Positions 1,959-22,791 of a stretch of DNA of 64,000 bases are shown here, piece after piece; the stretch's first letter is position 1; every line of letters begins with the position of its first letter. Made by a program: the position numbers and the translations under genes. Source of the DNA: Nitzschia sp. DOCU1 (lineage: Eukaryota; Bacillariophyta; Bacillariophyceae; Bacillariales; Bacillariaceae); contig OX595989.1 of the NCBI GenBank assembly GCA_951394045.1, forward strand, positions 1,426,001-1,490,000, given 5' to 3'. The notes under the pieces are model-generated. The model was not told where the DNA came from. It saw only the letters and a program-made list of their open reading frames with translations, and searched no databases.

Positions 1959-2959
1959 TGATTTTATTATGGTGCGATGGTCTCTTGTCTTCCACAATAT
2001 TTTCTGGGTGCTGTTGGGGATGAATTTGTGAGATGTATACCCAAAGAGAAGGGCATCAATTCTTCGCGTCGTTCCCTGACATGGATGGTCATGCCATGGA
2101 AAGGAACGTCTCAAGTGCGGGTTTCCTCTGTCGTGTGTGTACTATCAATCGTGTTCCGATTTACGTGCGTCTGTCGGCAATTGGCATATACGTTTGCATT
2201 GCGTGCCTTATGTATTGGCACAATCAGAGACGTCGGGATAATGTCTTGTGGCATACCGGTATACTTTGCAACGATTCCCTTGTAAAAGAAATGCTCTTCT
2301 TTGAAGATCCATCAGTTGGCGTTCGTGCTTGTTGCAGCTGTCAACCTATTATATTGGATTGCCGTCGCACTTATTACGTACGACAGAAGGTTTAGGAACG
2401 CGTGGGAACGGAGTCTAAAATCATCGAAACGGGTACGCAAGCGAAGAAACAAGGAACGTTTGTCACAGAGAAAGGAACGTGTGGAACATTTTCCTCGAAA
2501 GTATGCCTGGTACTTATGTACTGTCAGTAGGTATACTCGTGTATCGCAAATCCCCATTGTTGCTCCCCAACTTTCACACCCACAAATCATTCCATCACGG
2601 CGTCTTGCGTACTCGTGTCGTACGATACCTGGTACGGGCGAAGGCGAAAAAATGTTCTGCGATGAGAAAGTTCTGCCTTGGACCAATGAAAATCGAGCTC
2701 GTCGGTGGTCTGTCAACAACAGCGACAATGGCAATGATAGGAGTCGCACGTGCATCTTCCCATGAATCTCGCAGTGTGTGGCGTTACTCCGCAACGCAAG
2801 GAGGAAGGCGGTCGTCTTCTGGAAAGACACAAGACTACTCATTTTCTCTCCTGCCAATCGCATCAGGAGTCAGTCAATCGTACTGCTGCATTGACAACTT
2901 GGCGTTTTCTCTCTCGGCTTGACATTTTCTCACAACATCATCAACAACATACCAAGAAC
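1959..2959. other. Intergenic, divergent promoters and 5' UTRs
   Basis: About 1 kb lies between two divergent genes (minus-strand start at 1958, plus-strand start at 2960). Open frames on both strands here have no recognisable protein character and overlap each other. I see no gene, RNA or repeat that I can support. The last 60 bases before 2960 read like a leader (CAACATCATCAACAACATACC), consistent with 2960 being the start codon. Confidence 0.5.
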
Positions 2960-5749: not shown

Positions 5750-5967
5750 TTATGGTTCCAATCTTTCCGGAAACGGAAAAACTTTTTTTTATTTTTCCCC
5801 CGACATGACCCGAAGCCAAAATCTTTTCGATCGCCAGATCGCCGGGCAAGCTTCGGATTGGAGGGAAAATCACGGTCCAACGCGTAGATAAGTCCCGTAG
5901 ACCATAGTAGAAAATTGAACGTTGGCTCTAGTTTTCCGTTTAGCCCTCACAAAATTGGCGACGATGA
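5750..5967 (+). repeat. Left terminal inverted repeat of the outer transposon
   Basis: 218 bp that match the reverse complement of 24266-24484 with a few substitutions and one indel. Its inner edge contains the ATG (5964) of the coiled-coil ORF1, so it probably also serves as that gene's promoter and 5' leader. Confidence 0.92.
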
Positions 5968-6644
5968 TGAATAACCAAGATGAACAAGACCCCAACGGCC
6001 CTGACGAGGAGCCGGCCCATAACGAAAATGGCGAGGAACAACATGTGGATGCACCTGCCTGTCCTGCCGGCAGCCCTTGCATTCGAGTCATCGAAGGACT
6101 TAGGGCAAGACTCCGCAGGCTTCAAGACCAACTACGCCAGCATCGGACCGCATCTACGTTCGCTCTCAGCCGTCGGGAGGCGGCTTGTGATAAGAAAGAT
6201 TCGGAGATTAAAAAGCTGAAAGGATGTTTGGAGATCCAGGAGAGCAAAGCCGAGGCCAAACTGGACGCTGCACGTGCTAGAGCCGAGGCACGACGCCAGA
6301 AGGAGGTTGGCCAAGCCCAGGCCAGCTACGTCAAGCTCCAGCTCGATTCATCGAAGCAGATCGAGACCCTCAAGTCTTCGTCGAAGATCCAAGCCTCGGA
6401 GCTCCGACATGCGCTCTCTCAGCTCAAGAATTGCCAGCTGGCCCACAGTAAAGTGGTCGCACAGAAAAATGCTGCCGAGGGTAAGTTGGCAGTCTTGTCG
6501 GACCAACACCAGCTGCTCAAGTCTGAGGTGGCCGACAAGGGCAAAGTCCTTAAGCAACTTCTGCAACGGCATGACGCTGTACAGAAGAAGCTAAATAGGC
6601 AGAACGAAATAAAAGTTCAAGCATCCGTGCGAAAGGAGGAGCTT
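5964..6644 (+). pseudogene. Coiled-coil ORF1 of the outer transposon, 5' part (split gene)
   Basis: The first 227 codons of a protein cut by the inner element. It starts at ATG 5964 (MMNNQDEQDP); the frame extends upstream only with a TTG. An acidic N-terminus is followed by a CPAGSPC motif, then from about residue 40 by a long Lys/Arg/Glu/Gln/Leu-rich heptad region typical of a coiled coil. The reading frame ends naturally at GAG CTT (6639-6644), where the last TT is the target duplication. The continuation begins at 21901. Read-through into the inner element's end gives a stop at 6773, so a truncated protein is possible. ORF1-type coiled-coil proteins may assist transposition or bind nucleic acid, but this is inference. 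Confidence 0.85.
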
Positions 6645-6677
6645 CATCAGGAAAGGGAAAATATGGGGGTACCCATA
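6645..6677 (+). repeat. Left 33-bp terminal inverted repeat of the inner transposon
   Basis: Identical to the reverse complement of 21866-21898 over 33 bases (starts CATCAGGAAAGGGAAAATAT and ends GGGGGTACCCATA). The GGGGGTACCC core is itself nearly palindromic. The preceding TT at 6643-6644 is repeated after the right end. Confidence 0.95.
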
Positions 6678-6808
6678 AGTACCCCCCATTTTTTCCTTAC
6701 ATATGGTCATTTTCCCCCATATCCACAGCAATTTTTCCCCTCACTAAAGGCGCCCTCCCCCCCAAGTAAGTAGGATCCCATTCACTAACCCTCTCACCCC
6801 ATTGACAA

Positions 6809-7403
6809 ATGCACACTTTGGCAATCACCAACGGAACCCCTCCATTCGGACCTCCCCAATTGCCATTTCCCATTCAGCCGACAACCAACATGGAAGCAAC
6901 CCCCCATTGCCAACACGTAACACTCTCTTTTCAACATTTTCAATCCACCGTTCCCGACCCCCACCCCCCTCCCTCTACAACTTTTCCGTTACGGACACCA
7001 AATCGTAACGACATTCGACCCGCAGCACCAACGCCCAAAAATCGAATGACACCCCCCTCCAACATGCCGAAATCCTCATTATCACAGCGATCCTCCATCA
7101 ACATGAAGAATAAAAAGCGGAGTTCCACTGGGTCACCCCCACCTATCCCAGCTACGCCCCATCAATCTTTGCGAACCACGGCGAGCTGATTGTCGTATGA
7201 AAGTTCACTGCGACTGTGACATATGCTGGCGGGAAGTACGCAAACTACCACCCAAGCCAACAGAGGATGAAGTCAAAGCCAGAGAACTGCTCCAGATCAC
7301 CGAACGTCTCAACAAGAAGGCCAAGAGAGACGCCAAACGGGGGGTCAAGAAGGGCACCCAATCTTCAATCCTTTCCTTTTTTGTTTCACTAAACAAAACC
7401 TGA
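6809..7403 (+). CDS. Possible small Cys-rich gene at the left end of the inner transposon
   Basis: Two overlapping or adjacent frames: 6809-7189 (126 residues, Pro/Thr/Ser-rich) and a frame ending at 7403 whose open part, upstream of the ATG at 7197, includes a cluster of Cys and His (LCEPRRADCRMKVHCDCDIC) followed by a Lys/Arg-rich tail. The cluster resembles a small zinc-binding knuckle. The two frames would be joined by an intron ending at a CCCAG around 7151, but I cannot fix a donor with confidence. The start, splicing and even the coding status are uncertain. The position just inside the terminal repeat suits a DNA-binding accessory protein, which is inference only. Confidence 0.35.
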
Positions 7404-7444
7404 TAATTCCAATAGGCAAATTTACCTCATTAATAGAAAATTTA

Positions 7445-8335
7445 TTATTTACTATTATCAGTATATCTTAATCTCTCATCGCCGTGAAAAAGTATTACCA
7501 GGCGTTTAGCCGGAAACTCGGTGCCTTCCCAGGCTGCTGTCCCATGTTCCAATTCAACTGCATCAAGCAGAAGAACCGACCCTACATCCACGGAACACTC
7601 CCTTTCCTTTGTCTCGTTTCCTCTCTTTCCTTTCGGTGGCTTCAACTTTATCGATGCACAGCTTTTTCCACTGTCGTACACCATTGGTATCCAAAATACC
7701 AAAGGGTATTTGCCACCCGGCCCCGGCTCCTTTGCCTCGTACTCCTCCACGTCCCTGTGGAGAGCTCCAGCACTTTTATTCCACGGAGTTGAATGGACTA
7801 TGGTGACATCCACGAAGCGTTTGTCTTTCCATCCCATACCAGCCAACAATCCTTCACAGAAAGCACCCAAGACCGGACAATCCTGATCCAACTTTTCCGC
7901 AAGTGCTCCCTCAAACAACAAACATGTATTGATCCTACTGTCAAATTTGAAACAAGCTTGAGCCGGCTTTCGCCTCAACAACTCCATGCTCAATTTCTCC
8001 ATAAAAACAAGGTCTAACACATTGCGAAGATGGATGTACCTCCGCACACTCCACTCCTCCTCCCAATCACTCCATTTCCGATATTTTTTGCTCTTGCCCG
8101 TCCCCACCGTCAAGGTACATCGTGTCTTTCGCCGAAACTTCAACGTTGACGCTAGATAATTGCCTGCTAAATAAGCCATCTCTCTTGCCGCCTTTTCCTT
8201 TTCTTCGAAACTTTTCGACTCGCTCATCGTCTTTACTCTCTTTCCATTTTCACGTCTCCATCGGACACGCCGACTCTTATCCGTGATTGACGACAACTCC
8301 ACGAACTCCACCACGTCCTTCCGTGCAAACGGCAT
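7445..8335 (-). CDS. Putative 2-oxoglutarate/Fe(II)-dependent dioxygenase carried by the inner transposon
   Basis: A 296-residue protein starting at ATG 8335. The C-terminal half reads as a double-stranded beta-helix oxygenase: an HxD iron motif (H193-R194-D195 in ALHRDVEEY), hydrophobic strands (KYPLVFWIPM), then VGSVLLLDAVELEHGTAAW with the distal His (H264) and, 14 residues later, an Arg (R278 in AKRLVILFHGD) in the place where 2-oxoglutarate is held. The spacing fits the superfamily. The basic N-terminal 100 residues could contact nucleic acid. The family members closest in logic are TET/JBP DNA hydroxylases, AlkB-type repair enzymes and prolyl hydroxylases; I cannot choose among them by eye. 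Genes of the TET/JBP group are known to travel with KDZ transposons in fungi. The neighbouring 117-bp array lies upstream of its start. Confidence 0.62.
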   Translation of the reverse strand: MPFARKDVVEFVELSSITDKSRRVRWRRENGKRVKTMSESKSFEEKEKAAREMAYLAGNYLASTLKFRRKTRCTLTVGTGKSKKYRKWSDWEEEWSVRRYIHLRNVLDLVFMEKLSMELLRRKPAQACFKFDSRINTCLLFEGALAEKLDQDCPVLGAFCEGLLAGMGWKDKRFVDVTIVHSTPWNKSAGALHRDVEEYEAKEPGPGGKYPLVFWIPMVYDSGKSCASIKLKPPKGKRGNETKERECSVDVGSVLLLDAVELEHGTAAWEGTEFPAKRLVILFHGDERLRYTDNSK

Positions 8336-8441
8336 TATGTCACAAACTCAAACTCTCCAAAGCTCGACGGGTATTTCTCTGAATTTTTGTTGCCGCAATA
8401 CCCATGTGCTCCTTTCCCTCTCCGTGTCTTTGCAAGCACAC

Positions 8442-9313
8442 CACCACTGTACCCTCCATTGCGCCTTTTTAACTGAAAAACGGCTCAATCTGAAGAAAAT
8501 CACGCCGGCACCACCACACCGACCCTAACAGTCAATCCAGTCCAATCCCCTGCAATTTCACCACTGTACCCTCCATTGCGCCTTTTTAACCGAAAAACGG
8601 CTCAATCTGAAGAAAATCACGCTGGCACCACCACACCGACCCTAACAGTCAATCCAGTCCAATCCCCTGCAATTTCACCACTGTATCCTCCATTGCGCCT
8701 TTTTAACCGAAAAACGGCTCAATCTGAAGAAAATCACGCCGGCACCACCACACCGACCCTAACAGTCAATCCAGTCCAATCCCCTGCAATTTCACCACTG
8801 TACCCTCCATTGCGCCTTTTTAACCGAAAAACGGCTCAATCTGAAGAAAATCACGCCGGCACCACCACACCGACCCTAACAGTCAATCCAGTCCAATCCC
8901 CTGCAATTTCACCACTGTACCCTCCATTGCGCCTTTTTAACCAAAAAACGGCTCAATCTGAAGAAAATCACGCCGGCACCACCACACCGATCCTAACAGT
9001 CAATTCAGTCAAATCCCCTGCAATTTCACCACTGTATCCTCCATTGCGCCTTTTTAACCGAAAAACGGCTCAATCTGAAGAAAATCACGCCGGCACCACC
9101 ACACCGACCCTAACAGTCAATTCAGTCAAATCCCCTGCAATTTCACCACTGTACCCTCCATTGCGCCTTTTTAACCGAAAAACGGCTCAATCTGAAGAAA
9201 ATCACGCCGGCACAGCCACGCCGACCCTAACAGTCAATTCAGTCAAATCCCCTGCAATTTCACCACTGTACCCTCCATTGCGTCTTTTTAACTGAAAAAC
9301 GGCTCAATCTGAA
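8442..9313 (+). repeat. Left 117-bp-unit tandem array
   Basis: The landmark CGGCTCAATC recurs at 8481, 8598, 8715, 8832, 8949, 9066, 9183 and 9300, an exact 117-bp period with about seven and a half copies. Units differ at a few positions (for example AACCGAAAAA against AACTGAAAAA). Because 117 is a multiple of three, one frame stays open and gives a 39-residue repeat, which I regard as fortuitous. The same unit forms the right array in the opposite orientation. CACTA-type elements often have repeated transposase-binding motifs near their ends in both orientations, so these are candidate protein-binding or boundary sequences. Confidence 0.95.
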
Positions 9314-9394
9314 AAAATTCCATCAGCCAGTCATCCGTTGGGTGCTTGCTCCAAAAGCTGCTTCACACCCCGCCCCCACCCTGATGTTGTTGTT

Positions 9395-9490
9395 GTTTCC
9401 TCCATTCGTTCTTTTTCATCTGGCCGGGCCCGTAAAATTCTTGTTGTTTCCTTCATTCGTTCTTTTTCATCTGGCCGGGCCCGTAAAATC
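9395..9490 (+). repeat. Tandem duplication of about 50 bp
   Basis: Two adjacent near-identical copies, each with CATTCGTTCTTTTTCATC followed by TGGCCGGGCCCGTAAAAT, lie directly upstream of the ATG at 9493. They probably belong to the promoter or leader of the large plus-strand gene. Confidence 0.75.
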
Positions 9491-9492
9491 TC

Positions 9493-12400
9493 ATGCAATC
9501 CGGGAAGCCATTCACAACCACCCGCAACAAACTCCTCTTCCCCTGCCCCTTCCAAGGACCAAATTTTGTCTCATTGCAGTCGCCCCTCTACTTTTCGATT
9601 TGCGCCTTTTCCTGGCCTGACGTTGAGATATGCAAGGTCCTCACTCATTTACTCAACGTTGGTATTTTAACCCGTCTCTGCCAACACTCCGTTGCATCGG
9701 TCAAAGGTGGATTATTGTTTGATGTTGGAGTATCCGACACTATTCACCCTGAGGCGGTCAAAACCATTCCCGATCCCAATTGGTTCCCCTTATTCTGGTG
9801 TCACTACGTCCATCAATTGCACGAGGCAGAGTACAAGCTGACCTCCACATACCAACGCCATAAAGAAAAACAAAGGGAAAGGTATTATGAAAGCCATGTC
9901 GGAAAAAAAAGGGAACAGTATTCAGGGGGCACAGAGCAGTCTGGGCCAGCGGCGAGGAAGGGGAAGTTCGAGACTGAGACCGGAACTGACTTCATCTCAA
10001 CCTTTCTGCCCTCTGGATCTCCATGTGCTTCGCCTGCAGCAACGTCCCCCCCCCTTGTAACACCGCCTTCGACTCTACCTCCTGTCCTCTACATCGACCG
10101 GCCACATGTGCGACCCTCTTCCCTTTCCGACCTGCTTCAATCTGTTGACAGTGAATTTAACAACACAACAACTTACTCCTCAGACCCACATGCCGGTCAT
10201 GACGGGAACAAGGATGATGACAGCAGCCTCAACACAGCATGTGTTCTGGACGAATTTGGGGGAGACATCGGTGCCGACGAACAAGGGAAGGCAGCACCGC
10301 CGCCAGTGTATCTACCAACCTTTGCCTCACTGTTCGATTCGGGTAACAATGAACTTCACAAAGACGGGGACAGCTGTGTAGACATTGGTGGTGCTCAGGA
10401 GGAACTCCAGGAACAAGAGGATGTGGAACGCGCCCCAGGGCAAGCCGACGACATAGGCGAGATCGACTACGAGTTCCTCGAAATAGCGGACAGCGAGTTC
10501 AACAGCGACGGCGAAGACCACGGCATTAGCATTGACAACGGCGGTGCTCGGGACGACGACATGGACAAGGAAGGTGTTCCTGGGGAAGGCAACTGCAGCG
10601 ACGGCGAAGACTACGGCATTAGCATCGACAACGGTGGTGCTCGCGACGACGACATGGACAAGGAAGGTGTTCCTGGGGAAGGCAACTGCAGCGACGGCGA
10701 AGACTACGGCATTAGCATCGACAACGGCGGTGCTCGCGACGACGACATGGACAAGGAAGGTGTTCCTGGGGAAGGCGACTGCAGCGACGGCGAAGACTAC
10801 GGCATTAGCATCGACAACGGTGGTGCTCGCGACGACGACATGGACAAGGAAGGTGTTCCTGGGGAAGGCGACTGCCCCGATGCTGCTGATGCCAACACCG
10901 ACATTCCTCACGACCAAGGCGGCCAGTACGACGATAACTTGTCTAGAATGGATAAGTTAATGCTACGCATTGCGTCTACCGCCCCAAGTAAACGTCTACT
11001 CTTTCTCTTCATGCGTCAAGAAGGGCAGATGTCGTCCCATACCCCGGCAGAGATTCTCGAAATGGCCTGCACAAAGTCACTGTCCTTGTTATCGCTTCAC
11101 AGGGACATGGCTCGTGTCAACTGTGCCAAGTCTTTCGGTTTCGAGGTCCATACTCTCAGCCGTCAGTCTAGTGACCACCCGCATCACCTTTCTTTCGATG
11201 TCGGGTTGTCAGTGGAGCACTCTGCCTCAAGAAATCTGCCTGCCACCTTCAGTGGCTACTTCCAGGTCTGCTGTGATGTCATCTGGATGCCAGCTAGCTA
11301 CGAGGACCAGATCTACAGCCCATCATTCTTCAATCGCTTCCTTCCCAGCCTCCTACCGCGCCTTGCGCCGGGAGGTTCAATCCACTTGCCGGCAACGCCA
11401 CATGTCTTTTCGGGTCTGATGCAAAGCGGATTGGTCAAAGAGGGTGGCTGTCTTGTCCGGTTTCTTACACCAGACTTGGTGGCTGCGGAAAATATCTTGG
11501 CAATCGTTGGAGAGGCCTATGTCACAAAAGAAAACTTGGGAAAGCACCCTCCCAGTGCCTACTACCTGCAGCCTCACTACGGATTGTCGTACGAGCAATG
11601 TCGGAACATCTGTGGCGGATTGGCGGATATCCTTGCTTTCCATCCCGGGAACTATAGGCGAGATCCAGATCAAGAGGAGCCCAGGGTTGTCGCGTTGGTG
11701 ATCAAGCGACGAGTACCAGAGAAGCGTCTTCCGGGGCTCCGTCCAAGGCAGTGGGTCCGACTTACGCAGGATAATTTCGAGGAAGAAAGTCTGCAGGAGA
11801 CCAAAGAGAAGGAGGACGATGAATGGCTCGAGGGAGTTGACGGAAGTGGGTTGCCTCACAGACGTGTGTCCAACCTTGCCCGCAAGAAAGCGTTGAGCCG
11901 ACAAGTTTTCTTGAAGCTAATGAGCCTCGACCCAGTGGGTCCCTGCGCCGACAATTGGACCCACACTGTCATCATTTTTCCGCGTGAAATCTCGCCTCAA
12001 CTTTCAAGCCAGTCGGTTTATTCCAAGCTGTGTTTGCACCAGCCTTCGTCCATGAAGTTGTTTTTCCGAGAAGAAATGGTTGCCGTGCAGAAGGGGGAAT
12101 GTCAGCTGGTGATGAGCTTTGGACTGCGGGTTGCCCCACACGGTGTTCTTGGCAGGGAAGGTCTTCGTGCCTTGGCCCGAAAAATCCAGTTCGAGATTAA
12201 GTATCTTTCGAATGACGTCGATCATCGGTATGAGCCGGCGCTCCCCTACCAACCAGTCGTCGTCAACACAACCAAAGGGGCCGCTGGGTATGACCGTTCT
12301 TTGTCCCTTATGAAAATTGGCTTTCCCGAGGAATGTTTCGGCCTCGACCTGCTGACAACCTTCCGCCGAATTTGCGAGATGGGTTATGAAAAAGGGTTCC

Positions 12401-14286
12401 TTGACCTCATTGTTGAATATGGAACAAAGGACAGTCGTGGGGCCTTCGTCACCTGCCACATGGGCCCTGCCGTGCAAGATGCCAATGGATGGATACGCAA
12501 CAATGATGTTTCAGTGGCGATTCCTGGGTTGTACACATCAACCGCCCAGGCACCGAGCGACTTCCGTGAGTGGAAAAGGCTTTTGAACCTCGTGTTGACT
12601 GATGGCATGATCCGTCGAATGCTAAGTGGGAGTGACCGTGAGTTGCAGGGGAAATTGACGGAAGAGGAGAAACAGGTTGCTGGCGAGTTTTTCTACAACC
12701 ACTTGATGCTGGATCCAACAACTTTGGATGAATTTATATTCTCTCCTGGTATGACCGACGGCATTGGGGATTCCGGTGTGCATTTAGACACCATGAATGC
12801 AGTGGAGACTCTCCACGACCACAACAACTGGGGGATCTACTATCACGAGGACCTCCGCCATTGTTTAACCGAGGAATCCCTCAAAAAACTACAGGCCATT
12901 AAGATGACCACCACAAACAAGTTTTCAATTCACTTGTCTTACGGCCGGTTCATCATCATGAGCCAGGCCCGCAAGTTGATGAACAAGGATGCCGACGCCT
13001 ACACGCTGGCCATGATGGAAGCTGCTGATCAAGAACACGAGTTGTCGTTGGGGTGGCTGGGAACAGCCAGGCATGAACGTTTCCTTCGGTTCTTGAAGGA
13101 CCAAGACAACAGCTACGAATTCAAGACTTGTGTGGGGATGGCCAGGGCAACCATTGTCAAAGAGGGTTCAAACCGGGATCTTTTTCTAGGAACGGCAGCC
13201 TATTGCTGGTTTCGGCTGTTGGATCATTACCCTACCCTGAAGTGGAGGCACTACGATGAGTACTGCGCCGTGGTTGCAAGGGAGGTCAATGGAATCATTT
13301 TGCTGGTGCAAGTCACTGAATTCTTCCTAGAGTCAGAGGTGGGACAACGAATGTTTCGGGAAGAGTTGGTGGAAAACGACCAAGTTGGACGGCTATTTCG
13401 GATATTCAGGGTTGCCATGATGAGGCATGACGACGAAAAGAGGAGCCTTGAAAAGCCACGAGGCTCGGAGCAAAACCGGTGGGTCGTTTCGGGTTCGACC
13501 ATATACAGGGGGGATCAGGACATGGACAAAGTTGTTGCCTTTGTTACCTTTGTGTCGGAGCAGTTCAAAATCATCCGGCATTCCACCGACTTGGCCCAGC
13601 AGGTTGACGTGTGTCGGACTATGGTTGACAAGAGGTTACGAAAGGGGTTGGTGGAGGACGGAATCTTTGACATGTCTGATGTTCGGGGAACTTTCCTTGT
13701 CCACCTGGCAGCTTATGTCCAGGCCATACCTCCGTGCTTTGCTTCTTGGGCGTCCATCAAACGACCTGATGGAAAAATTTCAAGGACAAAAGGAGCTGGC
13801 TGCTATCGATTCATCAACAACGTCATGAGGGATGCCTACCCCACCCGTTATTCCGAGAATTTGACCACAGAGGAAGTAAGATCCGTGGTTGACAAGACGA
13901 TTGCCAACATGGTCAAGTCGGGGAGGCAGGTCGATTATGCCTTCATCGACCAGAATGGTTGCCTCAATGCAAGGCGGATATTTTCAAGTGACGGGACGGA
14001 CAAGAGAAAGAATGACCTGGCTTTCTTCCATGCGGATGGGACAATGTTCCTTCCGATCCAATCACGGGTATTATCCTGTATCAAGGACAGTGGGCTCTCT
14101 CAACGATCACTGAGGTTCTTTGTCAGGGATAGGTGGTACCTGTTGGCGGACTATCGCCCGCCGGTGCCAACTACTGGACTTGACGAGTGTGCAATCCGTA
14201 GCAAGTCCTGGGGATCTGGCACAATGGGAGAATTCCGCTGTAGTCGTTTGCTGGGAAAGGATGGGGAACTTATCTCGGTTGTTTGA
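9493..14286 (+). CDS. Large transposon-encoded protein with a methyltransferase-like region
   Basis: An uninterrupted 1,597-codon frame from ATG 9493. I see a low-complexity acidic N-terminal part with four copies of a 31-residue repeat (SDGEDYGISIDNGGARDDDM core), then from about residue 490 a globular part. Around residues 560-740 there is a pattern of a hydrophobic strand with DVIWMP, an FFNRFLPSLLPRL helix and an APGGSIHLPA turn. This resembles the second half of a Rossmann-type class I methyltransferase fold (Asp strand, helix, GG turn), but no clear GxGxG SAM-binding loop is visible, so it may be degenerate. The remaining 800 residues contain no domain I recognise. The first roughly 60 residues could be leader or an unspliced segment. 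It faces the transposase gene convergently, with the 132-bp array between them. Confidence 0.75.
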   Translation: MQSGKPFTTTRNKLLFPCPFQGPNFVSLQSPLYFSICAFSWPDVEICKVLTHLLNVGILTRLCQHSVASVKGGLLFDVGVSDTIHPEAVKTIPDPNWFPLFWCHYVHQLHEAEYKLTSTYQRHKEKQRERYYESHVGKKREQYSGGTEQSGPAARKGKFETETGTDFISTFLPSGSPCASPAATSPPLVTPPSTLPPVLYIDRPHVRPSSLSDLLQSVDSEFNNTTTYSSDPHAGHDGNKDDDSSLNTACVLDEFGGDIGADEQGKAAPPPVYLPTFASLFDSGNNELHKDGDSCVDIGGAQEELQEQEDVERAPGQADDIGEIDYEFLEIADSEFNSDGEDHGISIDNGGARDDDMDKEGVPGEGNCSDGEDYGISIDNGGARDDDMDKEGVPGEGNCSDGEDYGISIDNGGARDDDMDKEGVPGEGDCSDGEDYGISIDNGGARDDDMDKEGVPGEGDCPDAADANTDIPHDQGGQYDDNLSRMDKLMLRIASTAPSKRLLFLFMRQEGQMSSHTPAEILEMACTKSLSLLSLHRDMARVNCAKSFGFEVHTLSRQSSDHPHHLSFDVGLSVEHSASRNLPATFSGYFQVCCDVIWMPASYEDQIYSPSFFNRFLPSLLPRLAPGGSIHLPATPHVFSGLMQSGLVKEGGCLVRFLTPDLVAAENILAIVGEAYVTKENLGKHPPSAYYLQPHYGLSYEQCRNICGGLADILAFHPGNYRRDPDQEEPRVVALVIKRRVPEKRLPGLRPRQWVRLTQDNFEEESLQETKEKEDDEWLEGVDGSGLPHRRVSNLARKKALSRQVFLKLMSLDPVGPCADNWTHTVIIFPREISPQLSSQSVYSKLCLHQPSSMKLFFREEMVAVQKGECQLVMSFGLRVAPHGVLGREGLRALARKIQFEIKYLSNDVDHRYEPALPYQPVVVNTTKGAAGYDRSLSLMKIGFPEECFGLDLLTTFRRICEMGYEKGFLDLIVEYGTKDSRGAFVTCHMGPAVQDANGWIRNNDVSVAIPGLYTSTAQAPSDFREWKRLLNLVLTDGMIRRMLSGSDRELQGKLTEEEKQVAGEFFYNHLMLDPTTLDEFIFSPGMTDGIGDSGVHLDTMNAVETLHDHNNWGIYYHEDLRHCLTEESLKKLQAIKMTTTNKFSIHLSYGRFIIMSQARKLMNKDADAYTLAMMEAADQEHELSLGWLGTARHERFLRFLKDQDNSYEFKTCVGMARATIVKEGSNRDLFLGTAAYCWFRLLDHYPTLKWRHYDEYCAVVAREVNGIILLVQVTEFFLESEVGQRMFREELVENDQVGRLFRIFRVAMMRHDDEKRSLEKPRGSEQNRWVVSGSTIYRGDQDMDKVVAFVTFVSEQFKIIRHSTDLAQQVDVCRTMVDKRLRKGLVEDGIFDMSDVRGTFLVHLAAYVQAIPPCFASWASIKRPDGKISRTKGAGCYRFINNVMRDAYPTRYSENLTTEEVRSVVDKTIANMVKSGRQVDYAFIDQNGCLNARRIFSSDGTDKRKNDLAFFHADGTMFLPIQSRVLSCIKDSGLSQRSLRFFVRDRWYLLADYRPPVPTTGLDECAIRSKSWGSGTMGEFRCSRLLGKDGELISVV
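10498..10878 (+). repeat. 93-bp coding tandem repeat
   Basis: Four in-frame copies with an exact 93-bp period (GACGGCGAAGAC at 10507, 10600, 10693, 10786), encoding a 31-residue acidic unit. The copies are almost identical in DNA, including third positions, so they arose by recent expansion. Confidence 0.95.
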
Positions 14287-15108
14287 AGACATCTTTCATA
14301 TCACTAACACTGTATAACTCTACTAGGAATTATTGTTTGAAGACATATTTCAAATCTCTAACAGTGTATAAACTCTACTAGGAATTGTGCCACACAAAAA
14401 GGACGATGTAAGGAGACAGCAGTTATCCCTGCTATGCCTGGCAGAAAGGCACATTAGAGGATACAATGGCTGGCAGAAAGGCACATTAGAGGATACAATG
14501 GGGAAAGCCTCACAAGAAAGGCACGGTAGAGGATACAACTGGGACTGCCGCAGAAAAAGGACGTTCTAAGGAGACATCGATTAACGCCGCTGAGAAAGAC
14601 GCCGCAGAGGATACAACGGGGCATGCCGCACAGAAAGGATGATCTAAGGAGACAGCGATTATTGCCGCAGAGAAAGACGCAGTAGAGGATACAACGGGGA
14701 CTGCCGCAGAAAAAGGACGTTCTAAGGAGACAGCAATTATCGCTGCTATGCGGCATGCCGCACAGAAAGGATGATCTAAGGAGACAGCGATTATTGCTGC
14801 AGAGAAAGACGCAGTAGAGGATACAACGGGGACTGCCGCAGAAAAAGGACGTTCTAAGGAGACAGCAATTATCGCTGTTATGCGGCATGCCGCACAGAAA
14901 GGATGATCTAAGGAGACAGCGATTATTGCTGCAGAGAAAGACGCAGTAGAGGATACAACGGGGACTGCCGCAGAAAAAGGACGTTCTAAGGAGACAGCAA
15001 TTATCGCTGCTATGCGTGGGAAAGCCGCACAAACAGGAAAAGCTATGTAGTCTTAGGCTGCTACACACTGAAACACAGAGGCTAGTAACCTTGTGAAGGT
15101 GGCGTGAG
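14287..15108. repeat. 132-bp-unit array and short duplications between convergent genes
   Basis: Two roughly 55-bp near-copies (TTTGAAGACAT...TCTACTAGGAATT) at about 14283-14390 directly follow the stop of the large ORF. They are followed by a region built from a basic module of CAGA(A)AAGG and (G)AGGATACAAC or AGGAGACAGC motifs. A higher-order unit of 132 bp (GCATGCCG landmark at 14621, 14753, 14885) repeats a little over three times. A minus-strand open frame over the array (14454-15122) is Cys/Ser-rich repeat translation and is not counted as a gene. The array may act as a terminator or spacer between the two convergent genes. Confidence 0.88.
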
Positions 15109-18100
15109 TTACCATGGACCATCCATAGTTCGGGAGTACGTGTGTGCCCAATAGCTTTTTCGGTCCCTTATGTATACTATGTTTTTTGACTGAGTGGTTG
15201 AATTCTCGACTGCAAGGTCAATATATGACCGTAGTTGCGAGAACTCTTGGACAACCATAATACGTCGTTTGATTTGAGATGGGTGGCACAGCCTGATAAC
15301 TGGTCTCAATACCTGCCTATGTGAAGATTGGCCCTCGTGTAGAACGTTCAGATTCTCATCAAGGAGGGGGGTTTGTATAGTACACTGCCGGTATTCAAGC
15401 TCCCAAGTTTCGGTCAAGGCGGTTTCACTTGCGGTGTCTTCGACTGTCGAGTGGATTATACACTGAACCTTAGGATTGTCAATTGGGTGCTCCTCTTTTT
15501 GGGGATCATACCCTGGGTTGCATATTATTCCTAACAACCTCACCGGAAACCAACCAGCGGGTGTGGTTCCTTCGTACTTTCCAGAAATGTTTTTGTGTGG
15601 AGGAAATGGGTGACCTGGCTCATTAAAATTGACAAGTACCCACTCGTACCACTGCTTCCCTCGGTAGAAGGGATGGCACCTCAGCCTTCTGTATTCGCCG
15701 TCTCTGTCGTCCGCCACGTAGACCTCAGTGTAGCCTTCGACCCAGCCGTCTTCGAAGAAGGATAATATGCTTTCCACCACCAGTTGGGGCATTTCCATCA
15801 ACACGTTACTTTTCTGTCGACCACTCCAGATACACTGTTTCAACTCATTGTTTGAGGCTTCGAGCCGCCACTGCACCTGGCTCTGGTATATCTTGAAACC
15901 AAGGCCATCAAGGCCCGTCGTTGCGGCTTTTGGTAGCTCAGATGTTGTGTCCTCTTCCTGGTCACCACTTTCCTGTTCCCCAGAAACGTCTAGGTAATCT
16001 AGGAGAGCTGTTTCGTAGACTCGGTCAGCTATCATCTCGCTGAAGTCATGAAGGTTGTCAGCGTGGGCGGCCTGTGAAGTCTTGCAAGGGTTCTTCCCGA
16101 AAAATTTGAGCATCCTTTCCCCCCAGTCCGCAATGTACTGATAGGGGAATCCAAACATTGTAATGTTGCGGGGGATGTGTAGCAGCTCGTGAAACTTCTG
16201 AGTGGCCCACCCACTACCCGCCCGGCGGGGAAATGTCTCCTGAATCAATTTCTGCAGATGACCTATACGTACCCTTAGTATCATCTCCTTTGTTGAATCC
16301 CAGTTGAAAATGTTTCCATTGCCCACCTCCAGGCGTGGATTACGACCGTTGGTGGCAAAGGCATGGAACATCAAAATCTCTTCAAAAACTTCGACTACCT
16401 GCTGAACGGTCACCTCCACAAGAGGTGGCAGTTCGACAACGTCCCCACTATTGTCCAACTTGGTCCGTTTGGCAGCAAGGTCTCCGTCTCTGGCACGTTG
16501 TGCCAACTCCCTGGCACGTGATCGGGTAAGACACTGCTCCATCAGGGCCGAGCCACGTCGTGTACGCAGTAGCACAAGCGACATCAATATAGTGCCAACC
16601 CACTCCCTCGCAGACAACATGGTAAGGGATGTAATGCCATTGGAGAAGTAGATTCTAGGAAAAGACTTCTTTTCCCCTGACCTTAATGTACCGAAGATAT
16701 GAGAAGCCTCTATGTCCAACCGGGCACACTCTCCTGCGGAAAGGGGGGAAATGAGAAGGGAAAACATGGTCTTCATTATTGTCATGAAGATATGCATCAA
16801 GTCATGGGGTAGGGGTAGAGAGGCCTGTCCACCAATATCAACGTCCCATAGACTGTTATGACAGACGTGTGTGCACAGATTAGCCAAGGCTTCCCTTCCG
16901 GCTGCCACCTGTTCCCTAGTTGATTCCGGCGACAAGACGGCAGCCACGTGTGGCTTGACGTCATCGATCGTAACCTCTGTGCATTCTGCCCCAGCCACTC
17001 CCGCTTCGGCAGAGGTAATGTTGCAGAAACGAGATAATCTGGATGAATTCTGGTACGAGGAATATCGACACGCTTCACAGTCCATGGCCTTGGCATCACC
17101 ACAGATAAACGCAATCGGCAATCGGAGATAGACTAGCCGAGCCTCGTTGCCAATCAGAACAACTCTTGGTTGCTGGCGGAACTCTTGTTGTACCTGTCTA
17201 ATCTCTTCGAAAATCTTGGCCTGGCACAGATGAAAGTTTCTGACGGTGCGACCCTTTCCCTCTCGTGGGATGTTTTCTGCCCCCTTTTGTGCCTTGGTCC
17301 TTTTATCAAAGTTAGGTATGTAACCGATGGTCCGAACATACTTGCGACGATACCGAAGGTGGTGTCTCAGGATCCCAAATGCCAGTAAGACCGGAGTGAC
17401 TGATTGGCGTTGGTTTAAGCTAGTACCAATCTCATCCCAGTAGATGATAAAAGGGACGACCAAATCAAGACCTGGACAGAGGGACTCATGCCGAATGTAG
17501 TCCTGCATGGCCTTCCCTGACAGCACTTCGCCTGGCTGGGATTCAGCAAGGTTGATTTGGTTCCACCTATTAGTCGGATTAACCACAAGATTGTCTAAAT
17601 TAGACATCGTTTGAAAGTCGCGCAAAATCAAGTTCACGGCATCCCTGACAGAGAATATGGTAATGTTTGTCGACTGTCGGGGGAGGCGATGGTGGGACAA
17701 GTCTTGTGGTCGGGAGGACTCTATGGCAATTGGCACGGTCACCGGGAGCTTCATCGGGGATAGTTTACTGAACTTTGAATATAGAGTCGCCGCGGAGTAC
17801 GAAAGGAATGCATCAGAGGACAGGTCAACCCCTGCCGCCGCCCCCTTCCTGAGTTCACTCATCAGCCGGTCGAACAAATAGCGTGGAACAGCAGGGTGCC
17901 GACATATGCGGTACATCCGAAGGAGGAGCCTCTCTTCAGGTGTCCCGAGAAAGGATATTTGATTAGATTGTTCCCGCAGATCCGGCAAAGATAGTGTGGA
18001 TGTAGGGGCGCTTAAAACCTGGAGCTCCGCTGGGGACAAATGGCGAGGACCAGAGCTCGAAGGGGAGTGCTGTAGGGTACCTGGGGGGAGAGGTGCTACA

Positions 18101-18642
18101 CATTCATCAGGCATTGGGGGAGCTGATAAGGTAGGCACCCCCCCTGTTGTGGTAAAAGGGGACGGGGAAGAGTCTCTGGGTTGGTCGTCTGGGCGAAATA
18201 TGACATATGAGCCGGATTCCAAAGCAGAGAGGTCTTCATCACGTGGATCCAATTGGGCATCTGGAGGAGCGGGGGGTTCACGTATGGCAAGTAGTTGACA
18301 AGAGGCCCGCATCGACCTGCGAGTTCGGGGTGCGTCCAGTGTGGCGGAAGTAAGAGGAGGATGCTCTTGCACCTGGATCTGTCGACCGGCAGCAGAGGGT
18401 AGAGAAGCTGCCGGAGGCGTGTGTTGATAGACATAAAGAAGAGGGGGCGGCTGGGCAGTTGGTGATCGGAAAACTCTTAATGGTTGCTGCCCGTTTGAGG
18501 AGGTGTCATCGTCGAAACTGGCGTGCAAAAAGGAGGGTGACTCCTCTATACTTTCATCATCTCGCAGATGCTGTGCTTGCGGGTACGTGGTCACACGGAG
18601 ACGTGTTCTTTTCAGGCTGGCCTTGGAAGGATTTCGTGGCAT
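15109..18642 (-). CDS. DDE transposase, EnSpm/CACTA-Plavaka-like
   Basis: A 1,177-residue protein from ATG 18642 (the longer frame to 18678 begins only with TTG). Residues 1-230 are Pro/Ser-rich and disordered. The catalytic core shows a first Asp in VPFIIYWDEIGTS (D403) followed by PVLLAFGILRHHLR and IGYIPNF, a second Asp in ICGDAKAMDCEACRYSSY (D516) with a Cys cluster, a PHDLMHIF motif (D614/H617), and a Glu in ADWGERMLKFFGK (E842) preceded by FHELLH. The order D...D...DxxH...E with the (S/W)D(E/K)-(T)P(V/L) block is that of EnSpm/CACTA and fungal Plavaka transposases. The C-terminal 250 residues hold a WYEWVLVNF/PVRLLGI segment that could be a BAH-like module. It is intact and without introns. 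Confidence 0.82.
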   Translation of the reverse strand: MPRNPSKASLKRTRLRVTTYPQAQHLRDDESIEESPSFLHASFDDDTSSNGQQPLRVFRSPTAQPPPLLYVYQHTPPAASLPSAAGRQIQVQEHPPLTSATLDAPRTRRSMRASCQLLAIREPPAPPDAQLDPRDEDLSALESGSYVIFRPDDQPRDSSPSPFTTTGGVPTLSAPPMPDECVAPLPPGTLQHSPSSSGPRHLSPAELQVLSAPTSTLSLPDLREQSNQISFLGTPEERLLLRMYRICRHPAVPRYLFDRLMSELRKGAAAGVDLSSDAFLSYSAATLYSKFSKLSPMKLPVTVPIAIESSRPQDLSHHRLPRQSTNITIFSVRDAVNLILRDFQTMSNLDNLVVNPTNRWNQINLAESQPGEVLSGKAMQDYIRHESLCPGLDLVVPFIIYWDEIGTSLNQRQSVTPVLLAFGILRHHLRYRRKYVRTIGYIPNFDKRTKAQKGAENIPREGKGRTVRNFHLCQAKIFEEIRQVQQEFRQQPRVVLIGNEARLVYLRLPIAFICGDAKAMDCEACRYSSYQNSSRLSRFCNITSAEAGVAGAECTEVTIDDVKPHVAAVLSPESTREQVAAGREALANLCTHVCHNSLWDVDIGGQASLPLPHDLMHIFMTIMKTMFSLLISPLSAGECARLDIEASHIFGTLRSGEKKSFPRIYFSNGITSLTMLSAREWVGTILMSLVLLRTRRGSALMEQCLTRSRARELAQRARDGDLAAKRTKLDNSGDVVELPPLVEVTVQQVVEVFEEILMFHAFATNGRNPRLEVGNGNIFNWDSTKEMILRVRIGHLQKLIQETFPRRAGSGWATQKFHELLHIPRNITMFGFPYQYIADWGERMLKFFGKNPCKTSQAAHADNLHDFSEMIADRVYETALLDYLDVSGEQESGDQEEDTTSELPKAATTGLDGLGFKIYQSQVQWRLEASNNELKQCIWSGRQKSNVLMEMPQLVVESILSFFEDGWVEGYTEVYVADDRDGEYRRLRCHPFYRGKQWYEWVLVNFNEPGHPFPPHKNISGKYEGTTPAGWFPVRLLGIICNPGYDPQKEEHPIDNPKVQCIIHSTVEDTASETALTETWELEYRQCTIQTPLLDENLNVLHEGQSSHRQVLRPVIRLCHPSQIKRRIMVVQEFSQLRSYIDLAVENSTTQSKNIVYIRDRKSYWAHTYSRTMDGPW

Positions 18643-18784
18643 TGACAGACAGGGAATGGGAAATAAATGAAAATTCAAGGGTAGAAGTTAGCAACAAGTA
18701 AGAAGAAGTGAGGAGCCGGAGATATGTTCTGTGTGCAACTTCCTTTTGTGAGGCTCTTTTGAAAGCTAACTTGGCATGCGTGCT

Positions 18785-19865
18785 TTGTGCTTTCTTCAGA
18801 TTGAGCCGTTTTTCAGTTTAAAAGGCGCAATGGAGGGTACAGTGGTGAAATTGCAGGGGATTGGACTGGATTGACTGTTAGGGTCGGCGTGGCTGTGCCG
18901 GCGTGATTTTCTTCAGATTGAGCCGTTTTTCAGTTAAAAAGGCGCAATGGAGGGTACAGTGGTGAAATTGCAGGGGATTGGACTGGATTGACTGTTAGGG
19001 TTGGCGTGGCTGTGCCGGCGTGATTTTCTTCAGATTGAGCCGTTTTTCAGTTAAAAAGGCGCAATGGAGGGTACAGTGGTGAAATTGCAGGGGATTGGAC
19101 TGGATTGACTGTTAGGGTTGGCGTGGCTGTGCCGGCGTGATTTTCTTCAGATTGAGCCGTTTTTCAGTTAAAAAGGCGCAATGGAGGGTACAGTGGTGAA
19201 ATTGCAGGGGATTGGACTGGATTGACTGTTAGGGTCGGCGTGGCTGTGCCGGCGTGATTTTCTTCAGATTGAGCCGTTTTTCAGTTAAAAAGACGCAATG
19301 GAGGGTACAGTGGTGAAATTGCAGGGGATTGGACTGGATTGACTGTTAGGGTCGGCGTGGCTGTGCCGGCGTGATTTTCTTCAGATTGAGCCGTTTTTCA
19401 GTTAAAAAGACGCAATGGAGGGTACAGTGGTGAAATTGCAGGGGATTGGACTGGATTGACTGTTAGGGTCGGCGTGGTGGTGCCGGCGTGATTTTCTTCA
19501 GATTGAGCCGTTTTTCAGTTTAAAAGGCGCAATGGAGGGTACAGTGGTGAAATTGCAGGGGATTGGACTGGATTGACTGTTAGGGTCGGCGTGGCTGTGC
19601 CGGCGTGATTTTCTTCAGATTGAGCCGTTTTTCAGTTAAAAAGGTGCAATGGAGGGTACAGTGGTGAAATTGCAGGGGATTGGACTGGATTGACTGTTAG
19701 GGTCGGCGTGGCTGTGCCGGCGTGATTTTCTTCAGATTGAGCCGTTTTTCAGTTAAAAAGGCGCAATGGAGGGTACAGTGTATTTATTATGAAGGTGCCG
19801 GCGTGATTTTCTTCAAATTGAGCCGTTTTTCAGTTAAAAAAGGCACAATGGAGGATACAGTGCGT
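18785..19865 (-). repeat. Right 117-bp-unit tandem array, inverted relative to the left array
   Basis: GATTGAGCCG (reverse complement of the left-array landmark) recurs at 18799, 18916, 19033, 19150, 19267, 19384, 19501, 19618 and 19735, exactly 117 bp apart, with a shortened and diverged tenth copy at 19816. Units are more homogeneous than in the left array. The array sits between the starts of the transposase (to the left, minus) and the three-exon gene (to the right, plus), so it may also hold their divergent promoters. Confidence 0.95.
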
Positions 19866-20085
19866 TTATCGCGAGGGTGAAAAAAGGTTTGAACAGGGTG
19901 GGTGTGATTTTGAAAACAGAGGCCATTATCACCACACATAAAACGGGCGTGCATGCGTCCGTAAGTGAGAGAGTTTGAATGGGAGATGGAGAGAGGATGA
20001 CGAGTGTTTGGTTTAAAAAGAGTAAAAGGTTGCAACCTTGGCGCAAATATTATTGCCACAAAAACAGCAAAGGTGAGGAGCAGTC

Positions 20086-21410
20086 ATGAGGAACGAGGGT
20101 GGCTCCGTGCAGGAGAACGAAGCGGCTGCAGCCAGTGGCGGTGGTGGGGATGAATTTGATTTGGAAAGTTTCTTGGATAGGCTGCCGCCCGATCAGAGAA
20201 GAGAATTGCGCAGGGTGTTAAGTGGTGGTATGGGGAATAGTGGCTCCGGCGGGGCACCTGTGGTAGAAGTCGGCTTGGCAACGGGTGGAGTGGTTAGTAC
20301 AACCTCATCTATAACCGTGGGAGATAGGAGGGAGGAGGCTAAAATATTTACGGAACAGATGAAAAGGGTGTTCAGGCAGGTTAAGTTCATTGATGAACGT
20401 GATCTGCAACACGGCAGGCTATTCTACGAGAAGGTTGTCGAGGCAATGGGAGGTGGGGTGGTTGGTACGGATGAATGGTACAGGAAGAAGGGAGGTCTGA
20501 GAGCAAGGGCTTATGCTAAGATAGTGGATCTGAGAGGAAACGTAACGAATCGACTAAAAGAGGCATTTTTAGGTAAGAGGTTGCAGGGTCGGTGGAGTTG
20601 TATGGTATCGGGTATCGGCTGTTATGACTAACGAGCTGGGTGGTTGAAGCTCATTACCGTGTAAAGGAAGCTGAGGATAGTAACAGCAACGAAGATGAGG
20701 ATAGAGAGGGGGGTGTGGAAATGTTTGTTCCAGGTGATTTGTGGGAGACAAGGAAGAATCCAGGACTGTTCAAGGTTCTGTGCCGACAGTATTTTCCGGC
20801 GGTGAAATTTGGGAGGAAGGGCTCTTATGGTAGAAGAATGGCAAGCGACCTGGTGAGCCAGGTCTTGAACCCGTCGGATGAGGCATTCGTTTATCTTGTT
20901 TTGGAGAATAACTTTGAGTACTGGAAGACATTGGGCAGGGAAATGTAAGTTGGAAATTATGGGATTGTGATTGTTGGAATGAGAGGGTTTGAAGTATCTG
21001 ACTGATGGTGTGCCTGTGTATTGTTGCTGTGTAGGATTGATACGGGAAGGGTACTTCCCATGAATATGAAGGAGCGTATTGTGCAGCCCAAGTATACGCA
21101 TGCCAGGAACAGCAATAACATGAGTTGGAATCGAGCTGGAAAGGTGCGCTATGTGGAGTTTCTGAAAATGGTGATTGAGGATAGGAACAGGGCTGGTGCC
21201 AAAGAGCTGGAGTTGGAAGTTAGGCAAGAGTGGCGAGATGCTAATGGAGGGAGGCGCAGACGAGATAATCTGCAGGGGGGGCAGGAGGAAGAGATATTAT
21301 CAATTCCAATAGTGGATGATGATGGGAATCCAGTAGTCATTGAGGTGACGGGGGGGCCATTGGTTGAAACAGAGGATGAGTTGGAAAGGGCAGGCGTAAT
21401 GGCTGTTTAG
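20086..21410 (+). CDS. Three-exon accessory protein of the inner transposon
   Basis: Exons 20086-20572, 20650-20944 and 21035-21410 join in frame to 385 residues. Both introns are GT-AG (GTAAGAGG...TTGAAG with a TGACTAAC branch-like site; GTAAGTTGG...TGTGTAG with CTGACTGA). The N-terminus is Gly-rich. Residues of about 85-170 and 200-260 are helical and basic (MKRVFRQVKFIDERD; LFKVLCRQYFPAVKFGRKG), with the look of a DNA-binding or scaffold protein. The C-terminal tail is acidic. I do not recognise the family. In En/Spm elements a second protein binds the subterminal repeats; this protein, next to the right array, is a candidate for that role by position only. Confidence 0.78.
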
Positions 21411-21865
21411 AGTAACTGTTAGAAATGTTGAGGAAATTCATTAATGGACTGGGAATTTCTAATTGGGGTAGGGCGTAGTGAGTGACAGAGAGCGTATAAA
21501 GAGGGAATGGTATTTGATTGGTGTGAACCCATTTGGAACTGGTAAGGGGATGGGGTAATGGTAGTGGGGGGCGGTAGTATGGGAGTAGAGTGCCATTGAA
21601 AATGAAAAGTGCTGTGAGAAATGGTAAGGTAGTTCATAAGTGGTATTATGGATTAGGGAGGGTTAAGGGTTGCCCAATGGAAGGACGGTATAAGAATGGT
21701 TGTTGCCATTTTTGAATGATGTGCAAAATAGTGAATGGTGTGGCGGTTAGATAGGGGGGTGGGCCATAGCTGCTGGTTAAGGGGTTAAGTATGATTTGGG
21801 GGGATAATAATGGGTTCGGAGACCTCCCCACGGTGATGCCTATTTTTGGGGGTCCCGGACATAGA

Positions 21866-21898
21866 TATGGGTACCCCCATATTTTCCCTTTCCTGATG
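21866..21898 (-). repeat. Right 33-bp terminal inverted repeat of the inner transposon
   Basis: Reverse complement of 6645-6677 without mismatch. It is followed by TT (21899-21900), the second copy of the target duplication, and then by the continuation of the interrupted ORF1. Confidence 0.95.
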
Positions 21899-21900
21899 TT

Positions 21901-22791
21901 AAGGTACGTCAGAAGGAGGTGGAGCTGCAGCGAGTTGAGTCCCTCAAGCGCAAGGCCATCGAGGTCAAAGAGGCAGAGGGCGAGGTCAAGAAACAAGTGC
22001 ACGCCCATCGTGCCAAATGCATGAAGGCGATTGCTCGTAATCGTGCTTTCCTCAAAGGTGAGGAGCACCGTCGCAACATTGGAACTTCGAAGGAACGGAT
22101 AAATCAAGCTTTGGCGTTCCAAAATGCAGCTGCTGTCGCTGCTAGTCAAGGCGGTACCTTTCCAAGTGTCGGGGGTGGTCCCGATTCCTTGGCGAACTAT
22201 CCTCCGGTCTGGGTCCAACAGACCCTCACCCAGATGCCTTCGTCCGCATCGTCCACGAGTACTCGTCCTCCTACCGCACCTGTCCCGCAGATGAACAACA
22301 GGCAACAACCAGCATCGTCTGCTCAGGTCGTGGCGTCCCCACCTATTCGAGTTCCCGGTGGATATGTTCGTACCCGGGATACTATTACGGGTATGGATGT
22401 CTACATCCACGAGGGAACAGGTAAGGTGGTGCATAGTGTTCTTGAGTGCTACAAGGAGCCTCCACCCCAACAAACGCAGTCGTCCATGCATCCACCTGAA
22501 ACGCCCACGCAAATCGCTTCGGTTTCACCTGAAACGGTGCTTTCGACGGCAGCAGGGCCCCCGCAGCGTCCAAGAAAGATTAGAAAGCTGAATCATAGCA
22601 ATCGGCGCAATCCGATTGACCTCTGCTGCAGCGACTCTGGAATTTCTTCGGGTGAAGAAGAATCGCCGGAGATTGTGTATGGCAAGTCTGAAGCGCAGCA
22701 GCACGACAAGCAACTTCTGCTAGGCCAAGACCCCGAGGACAAAGATGATGAACGCGGTGAGGAATCCGACTCTGAAAAGACTGAATGGTAG
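21901..22791 (+). pseudogene. Coiled-coil ORF1 of the outer transposon, 3' part (split gene)
   Basis: After removal of the inner element and one TT, GAG CTT reads directly into AAG GTA CGT CAG at 21901. The heptad pattern continues without a break (KEVELQRVESLKRK, EGEVKKQVHAHRAK) and ends at the stop at 22791. The complete protein would have 523 residues. The C-terminal half is Pro/Ser/Gln-rich with an acidic tail (DPEDKDDERGEESDSEKTEW). Stops and frameshifts are absent, so the gene was intact when the inner element arrived. Confidence 0.85.

Follow-up and report, generated by a model that had tools for sequence, protein, structure and literature searches.

What does a DNA transposon of a diatom do with a gene for a putative dioxygenase? 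The question is raised by a 15,254-bp element at positions 6645-21898 of the stretch of Nitzschia sp. DOCU1 DNA analysed here (the window: 64,000 nucleotides, bases 1426001-1490000 of contig C5, in a genome searched as 52 Mb in 63 contigs), whose four genes we call DIOX, BIG, TPASE and SG. We assign the element to the Plavaka branch of the CACTA/EnSpm-like cut-and-paste transposons. We favour, at a probability of roughly 55%, the reading that it is a Plavaka element with an accessory oxygenase that would counter silencing, by analogy with the fungal transposons that encode TET dioxygenases.

A complete transposon and its insertion site

Repeat analysis delimits the element by 33-bp terminal inverted repeats on the left (6645-6677, plus strand, beginning 5'-CATCAGGAAAGGG...) and on the right (21866-21898, minus strand), which match each other perfectly and give the termini 5'-CATCA...TGATG-3'. 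Flank reading and a reconstructed empty site place strandless TT target-site duplications at 6643-6644 and 21899-21900, so that the ends and the TT duplication of the preliminary description were recovered on both sides. Excision of the element with one TT in silico yields an open host frame of 538 residues, and the joined 200-bp empty site has 23 matches in the genome: 20 are other full-length places free of the insert (15 at 94-97% identity, five at 100%); the flanks of the element in the window account for two more, and the last is partial, at 73%. Because the empty site recurs without the insert, the host frame is one member of a repeated family of genes, and the element went in precisely. 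This is a real and complete Plavaka-like transposon. The interrupted frame occupies window positions 5919-6644 and 21901-22791, and its family shows 20 other junction matches at 94-100%.

The 33-bp end matches the genome 35 times at up to three mismatches, compared with no match for the backwards control pattern. Both ends could be read in 12 elements, the window element included, and identical 2-bp flanks were found in all 12 (TT in four, TG in three, and TA, CA, TC, GG and GA in one each). Two of the TG elements share longer flanks and represent one duplicated insertion, which leaves 11 independent flank pairs; the remaining end matches are unpaired or lie outside the paired elements read. 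According to the part of PMC12730594 considered here, PlavakaB of the CMCT clade has CATCA...TGATG ends and 2-3 bp duplications, and all TET-bearing (TET+) Plavaka belong to PlavakaB; the window element has these termini, and a duplication of this length is present in 12/12 paired elements.

TPASE (15109-18642, minus strand) encodes a Plavaka-like DDE transposase of 1177 residues. Its scores against the Pfam Plavaka family PF18759 (18.1 bits in the window, 24.4 in the C14 copy and 23.5 in the C4 copy) all stay under the gathering cut-off of 26.3, which eight other loci of the genome pass, but a joint profile of the transposases of families 1 and 2 (family 1 being that of the window element) matches the profile of two above-cut-off families at E 6.6e-33. 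We therefore name it Plavaka-like, which bears out the earlier assignment to a CACTA/Plavaka-like transposase. DDE transposases of the CMCT clade are recognised by three acidic residues, D, D and E, the last two of which enclose C(2)C and H(3-4)H. The candidate residues D403, D516, DCEAC, HDLMH and E842, which sit in IIYWDEIGT, CGDAKAMDCEAC, HDLMH and WGERMLK, are assigned by position only. In a five-row alignment, the first D and GD are aligned in four rows, family 2 being the exception, and GER in all five, whereas C(2)C and H(3)H take the window's form in the two family-1 rows only.

Gene set, copies and related families

DIOX (7445-8335, minus strand; 296 residues) and BIG (9493-14286, plus strand; 1597 residues) start divergently, BIG and TPASE converge, and TPASE starts divergently from SG, a predicted three-exon gene of 385 residues spanning 20086-21410 on the plus strand (exons 20086-20572, 20650-20944 and 21035-21410). 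SG matches in three other copies (L020, L022, L030) break at identical exon boundaries. Each divergent pair of gene starts encloses a tandem array of a 117-bp unit: 7.5 copies at 8442-9318 between DIOX and BIG, and 8.5 copies at 18791-19780 between TPASE and SG, the second being an inverted copy of the first at about 95% likeness. The number of units varies among near copies, and neither array has a match in the C14 and C4 copies. There is also a 93-bp in-frame coding repeat in the acidic N-terminal part of BIG (four copies, 10503-10875, plus strand), a 54-bp direct repeat around and after the BIG end (two copies, 14279-14386), and 32/78/132-bp tandem repeats between the convergent BIG and TPASE ends (14434-15016, with the 78/132-bp array at 14528-15016). 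The three kinds of internal array described earlier (the 117-bp pair, the 93-bp repeat in BIG and the 78/132-bp array) are all present.

Six of the 12 paired elements exceed 13 kb, and five of these hold DIOX, BIG, TPASE and SG sequence (the window element, C5:96956, C11:1949699, C14:1029357 and C4:2113839); in the sixth, C11:2014602, TPASE is found only as an N-terminal piece. The four intact genes announced by the preliminary description are all open in the window, with SG as a predicted gene, and the same holds for the C14 copy, where 71% of the element can be aligned at 81.9% identity. Since all its genes are open, the window element is probably autonomous. BIG is split in the C5 copy; in the C11 copy BIG is partly deleted and the TPASE frame is broken, and in the C4 copy a part of TPASE is missing and the N-terminus of BIG is out of frame. 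DIOX also persists at C4:2136514, C16 and C8:2096764, three places without a recognised full element.

The ratio of nonsynonymous to synonymous substitution (dN/dS) was estimated between the window and C14 elements by the Nei-Gojobori method with 1000 bootstraps, except for the SG exons, which were taken without bootstraps and with exon 2 left out. It amounts to 0.116 (0.095-0.140) for TPASE, 0.126 (0.103-0.154) for BIG residues 431-1550 and 0.425 (0.293-0.571) for BIG residues 1-430 (numbered 1-1550 from base 9634), 0.292 (0.195-0.431) for DIOX, and 0.162 and 0.144 for SG exons 1 and 3. All values are below 1, and all four genes are under purifying selection.

A second family carries the same three genes. 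Its element at C6:480219-495822 (15.6 kb) encodes a DIOX of 330 residues and open frames of 1244 residues for BIG and 1221 for TPASE, with the order and strands of family 1. All four family-2 ends read carry CATCAGAGGGCCGG, so that the CATCA ends are shared too; the flanks are AA on both sides of the C10 copy and unequal, GA and TA, in the C6 copy. Between the two families, DIOX is about 29-33% identical, BIG 23-30% and TPASE 32-34% along some 100 residues. Family 2 differs further in that SG has no match in it and other open reading frames (ORFs) lie on its right side. Matches to the three genes in consistent order and strands occur at six places (two on C1, and one each on C6, C10, C11 and C17), the layout having been read through in the C6 copy and the spacing being larger on C17. 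Because it recurs in so deep a second family and is under purifying selection, we regard the gene set as no chance capture.

Other Plavaka families of this genome include family 3 (C9, C8, C3 and C11) and family 5 (C11:2249500-2258499). At their loci L039/L040, L044, L045, L046 and L043, which are above the Pfam cut-off, the transposase has a convergent partner of about 1000 residues with an HxD motif. At L038 (C8:2096300-2102600), foreign sequence replaces the last residues of a family-1 DIOX, and a 646-residue ORF related to the family-3 partner protein lies before the element end.

The paired elements at C15:1034969, C4:3463249, C11:2014602, C2:1460146, C13:785235, C11:1994349 and C11:2196842 lack DIOX and BIG. 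The first of them (1.5 kb, with pieces of SG) is plainly a deletion derivative; several others belong to one shorter related group. In the elements on C2 and C13 and at C11:1994349 and C11:2014602, the TPASE match is confined to residues about 11-117. Short or rearranged loci (L031, L032, L024, L034) hold an open ORF of 146-205 residues that matches only TPASE residues ~11-117, a match interrupted by a stop at L028; this ORF may be a remnant, or act as a competing DNA-binding fragment. C11:1994349-1998966 and C11:2014602-2030087 differ by about 10.9 kb, including a 1923-residue ORF without a Pfam match, and since their flanks are identical, the genomic segment was duplicated. At L030 (C4:3462900-3471600), near-same ends enclose a copy of SG, a TPASE N-terminal half at 71% identity and an acidic ORF of 952 residues (1056-3911, plus strand) with relatives at C13, C4, C8 and elsewhere.

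The predicted oxygenase and the large protein BIG

The structure model of DIOX adopts a double-stranded beta-helix (DSBH) fold as in 2-oxoglutarate- and Fe(II)-dependent (2OG-Fe(II)) dioxygenases, at moderate confidence (predicted local distance difference test, pLDDT, 59; predicted template modelling score, pTM, 0.65). The HxD...H...R pattern appears in the window copy as H193, D195, H264 and R278, with roles assigned by pattern, and the structural matches listed include SptF, FtmOx1, P4H and PHD2. Model and pattern agree with the dioxygenase proposed earlier, and DIOX is probably a 2OG-Fe(II) dioxygenase. Relatives are rare: a search of a 5.8-billion protein set with DIOX returned P0001 and P0002 only, the latter identical to the family-2 protein, and scans of IMG/VR gave no match for DIOX or BIG. 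The DIOX alignment leaves aside the C5 and C16 copies (which have stops), the truncated C12 copy, the C8:67 kb fragments and six further family-2 copies. In one sub-lineage (P0001, L023), HxD is replaced by HNN, so that the carboxylate that normally binds the metal would be lost.

BIG has no recognised fold: there was no Pfam match over the cut-off and no significant PDB sequence match, its single-sequence model is uninformative (pLDDT 41.7, no Foldseek match at E<=1e-3), and its residues 300-1500 found no relative among 7990 candidates scored from the 5.8-billion protein set. By eye, the stretch CCDVIWMP...LAPGGSIHLP resembles the second half of a class I methyltransferase. The preliminary description had called BIG methyltransferase-like, and we do not adopt this identity, which Pfam, the PDB sequence search and the uninformative single-sequence model leave unsupported. 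BIG was also considered as a TET-like protein. The motif HxDxHN is that of the animal TETs; family-1 BIG has HLDTMN, family-2 BIG has HFDSMN and the family-3 partner ORF has the TET-like HKDDHN. The profile of BIG from families 1 and 2 matched that of the partner ORFs of families 3 and 5 at E 0.23, near the 0.32 of a reversed control; homology is therefore unsupported and the idea was dropped.

Silencing, rival readings and known systems

We hypothesize that TPASE would excise and insert the element at its CATCA...TGATG ends, and that DIOX, as a 2OG-Fe(II) oxygenase, could be turned against host silencing, most likely by oxidising methylated bases, or a silencing mark on chromatin, at the element's own promoters. 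BIG and SG would be core accessory proteins, of which one may direct DIOX to the divergent promoters by binding the 117-bp array found at each. The genome offers a context for this in that the C5-methyltransferase family PF00145 has seven matches over the cut-off, at six places. Between the window and C5 copies, with repeats excluded, transitions affect 65/863 CpG sites compared with 10/722 GpC and 34/2645 other C/G sites, a clear CpG transition excess (CpG versus GpC, Fisher p 1.7e-9). The CpG observed/expected ratio is 0.75 in the element, 0.97 in window positions 22000-64000 and 0.64 in family 2; the 117-bp arrays are not depleted (1.04 and 0.95).

Several observations weigh against this anti-silencing reading. 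In the closer C11 pair, again with repeats excluded, the CpG excess is not significant (4/552 CpG versus 1/482 GpC and 3/1972 other sites, p 0.38), CpG is no scarcer than GpC in the C14 and C4 copies (0.88/0.86 and 0.87/0.86), and an 801-base slice of a light-harvesting gene has a CpG ratio of 0.66, so depletion is not peculiar to transposons. DIOX is the least constrained part of the gene set, bar the repeat-rich N-terminus of BIG; it carries a stop in the C5 and C16 copies, and D195 is replaced by N in 2/8 aligned homologues (P0001, L023) and R278 by C in 1/8, so that the protein may be inactive in some lineages. No DIOX match occurs in Plavaka families 3 and 5 of this genome, and DIOX is therefore dispensable for transposition in general. 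The sequence of DIOX has no significant match to known oxygenase families, and the Foldseek TM-scores of the matches listed are low (about 0.31-0.40 by query length, root-mean-square deviation mostly near 7). Tet_JBP (PF12851) has no match in the genome at E<=10, and TET is absent from the 50 PDB matches listed by each of two programs, which is no evidence of a different clade. Finally, DIOX and BIG are absent from seven of the 12 paired elements, whose ends are identical or nearly so; one of the seven (C4:3463249-3471243) carries a different gene of 952 residues on its left.

This last count speaks for the reading that DIOX and BIG are captured passengers that do not serve the element, and the preliminary description had proposed to look for copies that keep the ends without them. 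Such copies were found, but five of the six elements over 13 kb keep sequence of all four genes, and a family that shares only 23-34% identity has the three genes again in this order and on these strands. The constraint on BIG residues 431-1550 equals that on TPASE, and the dN/dS of DIOX has an upper bound of 0.43; we consider the passenger reading very unlikely. A transposon-borne oxygenase acting on a protein, for instance by hydroxylating the transposase, a histone or a silencing factor, in place of a nucleic-acid base would fit the structural matches listed, which are small-molecule and prolyl hydroxylases (SptF, FtmOx1, P4H and PHD2), and the lack of a TET/JBP match in Pfam; we consider it somewhat unlikely. 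That DIOX is a true TET/JBP member, and the element a TET+ Plavaka outside the fungi, would be in keeping with ends and short duplications common to TET+ Plavaka (PMC12730594, in part), with the HxD...H...R layout and with the CpG decay in one copy pair. The part of the same paper considered here reports that fungal PE-type TET/JBP members are barely detectable by sequence. Against such membership stand the empty PF12851 search, the absence from DIOX of the animal TET motif HxDxHN and, as weak evidence, the absence of TET structures from the matches listed, and we judge it unlikely.

The anti-silencing reading draws on known systems. Diverse fungal DNA transposons encode TET/JBP dioxygenases (Kojima 2025, PMC12730594, as far as the part considered here goes), and by analogy the window element most likely works like the fungal TET+ elements. 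It resembles the TET+ PlavakaB of Agaricales treated there in its Plavaka-like transposase, termini, duplication length and a predicted element-encoded oxygenase of the Fe(II)/2OG type. It differs in that its oxygenase is not detectably TET/JBP, in the added conserved BIG and SG and the inverted 117-bp arrays at both divergent promoters, and in its host, which is not a fungus: with 63 light-harvesting matches in the genome, the host is a photosynthetic eukaryote. One light-harvesting protein, of heterokont type, resembled XLH, FCP and VCPI chains as well as LHCI chains of entry 9vfj, with scores of much the same size. Partners like BIG and SG are not described for Plavaka in that part of PMC12730594, which mentions a third protein for TET+ Harbinger. 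The fungal TET+ KDZ elements (Kyakuja/Dileera/Zisupton) are likewise DNA transposons with a dioxygenase gene, but they belong to another transposase group and make duplications of 7 bp (Kyakuja) or 8 bp (a Dileera family) according to the same source. The anti-silencing protein VANC of Arabidopsis VANDAL elements targets regions made up of rapidly diverging tandem repeats (PMC10398659, in part); element-encoded anti-silencing aimed at tandem repeats in noncoding regions, as we propose here, would parallel this, although VANC binds in a sequence-specific manner and the part of PMC10398659 considered does not describe it as an oxygenase. Among open-licence PubMed Central (PMC) papers, judged by title and the start of the abstract, nothing was found on Plavaka in diatoms or on diatom TET/JBP transposons, and among the matches listed only PMC12730594 dealt with transposon-encoded dioxygenases.

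A bolder form of the anti-silencing reading, which we put forward tentatively as possible, is that a 2OG oxygenase outside the TET group was taken up independently by non-fungal Plavaka transposons along with an obligate partner, BIG. The two proteins would form a mobile anti-silencing module aimed at the tandem arrays in the promoters of the element itself, and this module would be a new type of eraser or rewriter of nucleic-acid or chromatin marks encoded by a transposon. BIG and SG, as conserved proteins without an assigned function, raise the question of a role in transposition. A copy with all genes open, a CpG-decayed copy and C5-methyltransferase genes in one genome would make the idea directly testable. 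Dioxygenase-bearing transposons have already been described in fungi, and if they have also arisen in algae with an unrelated oxygenase, the arms race of transposons with their hosts would have led more than once to elements that lift their own silencing.

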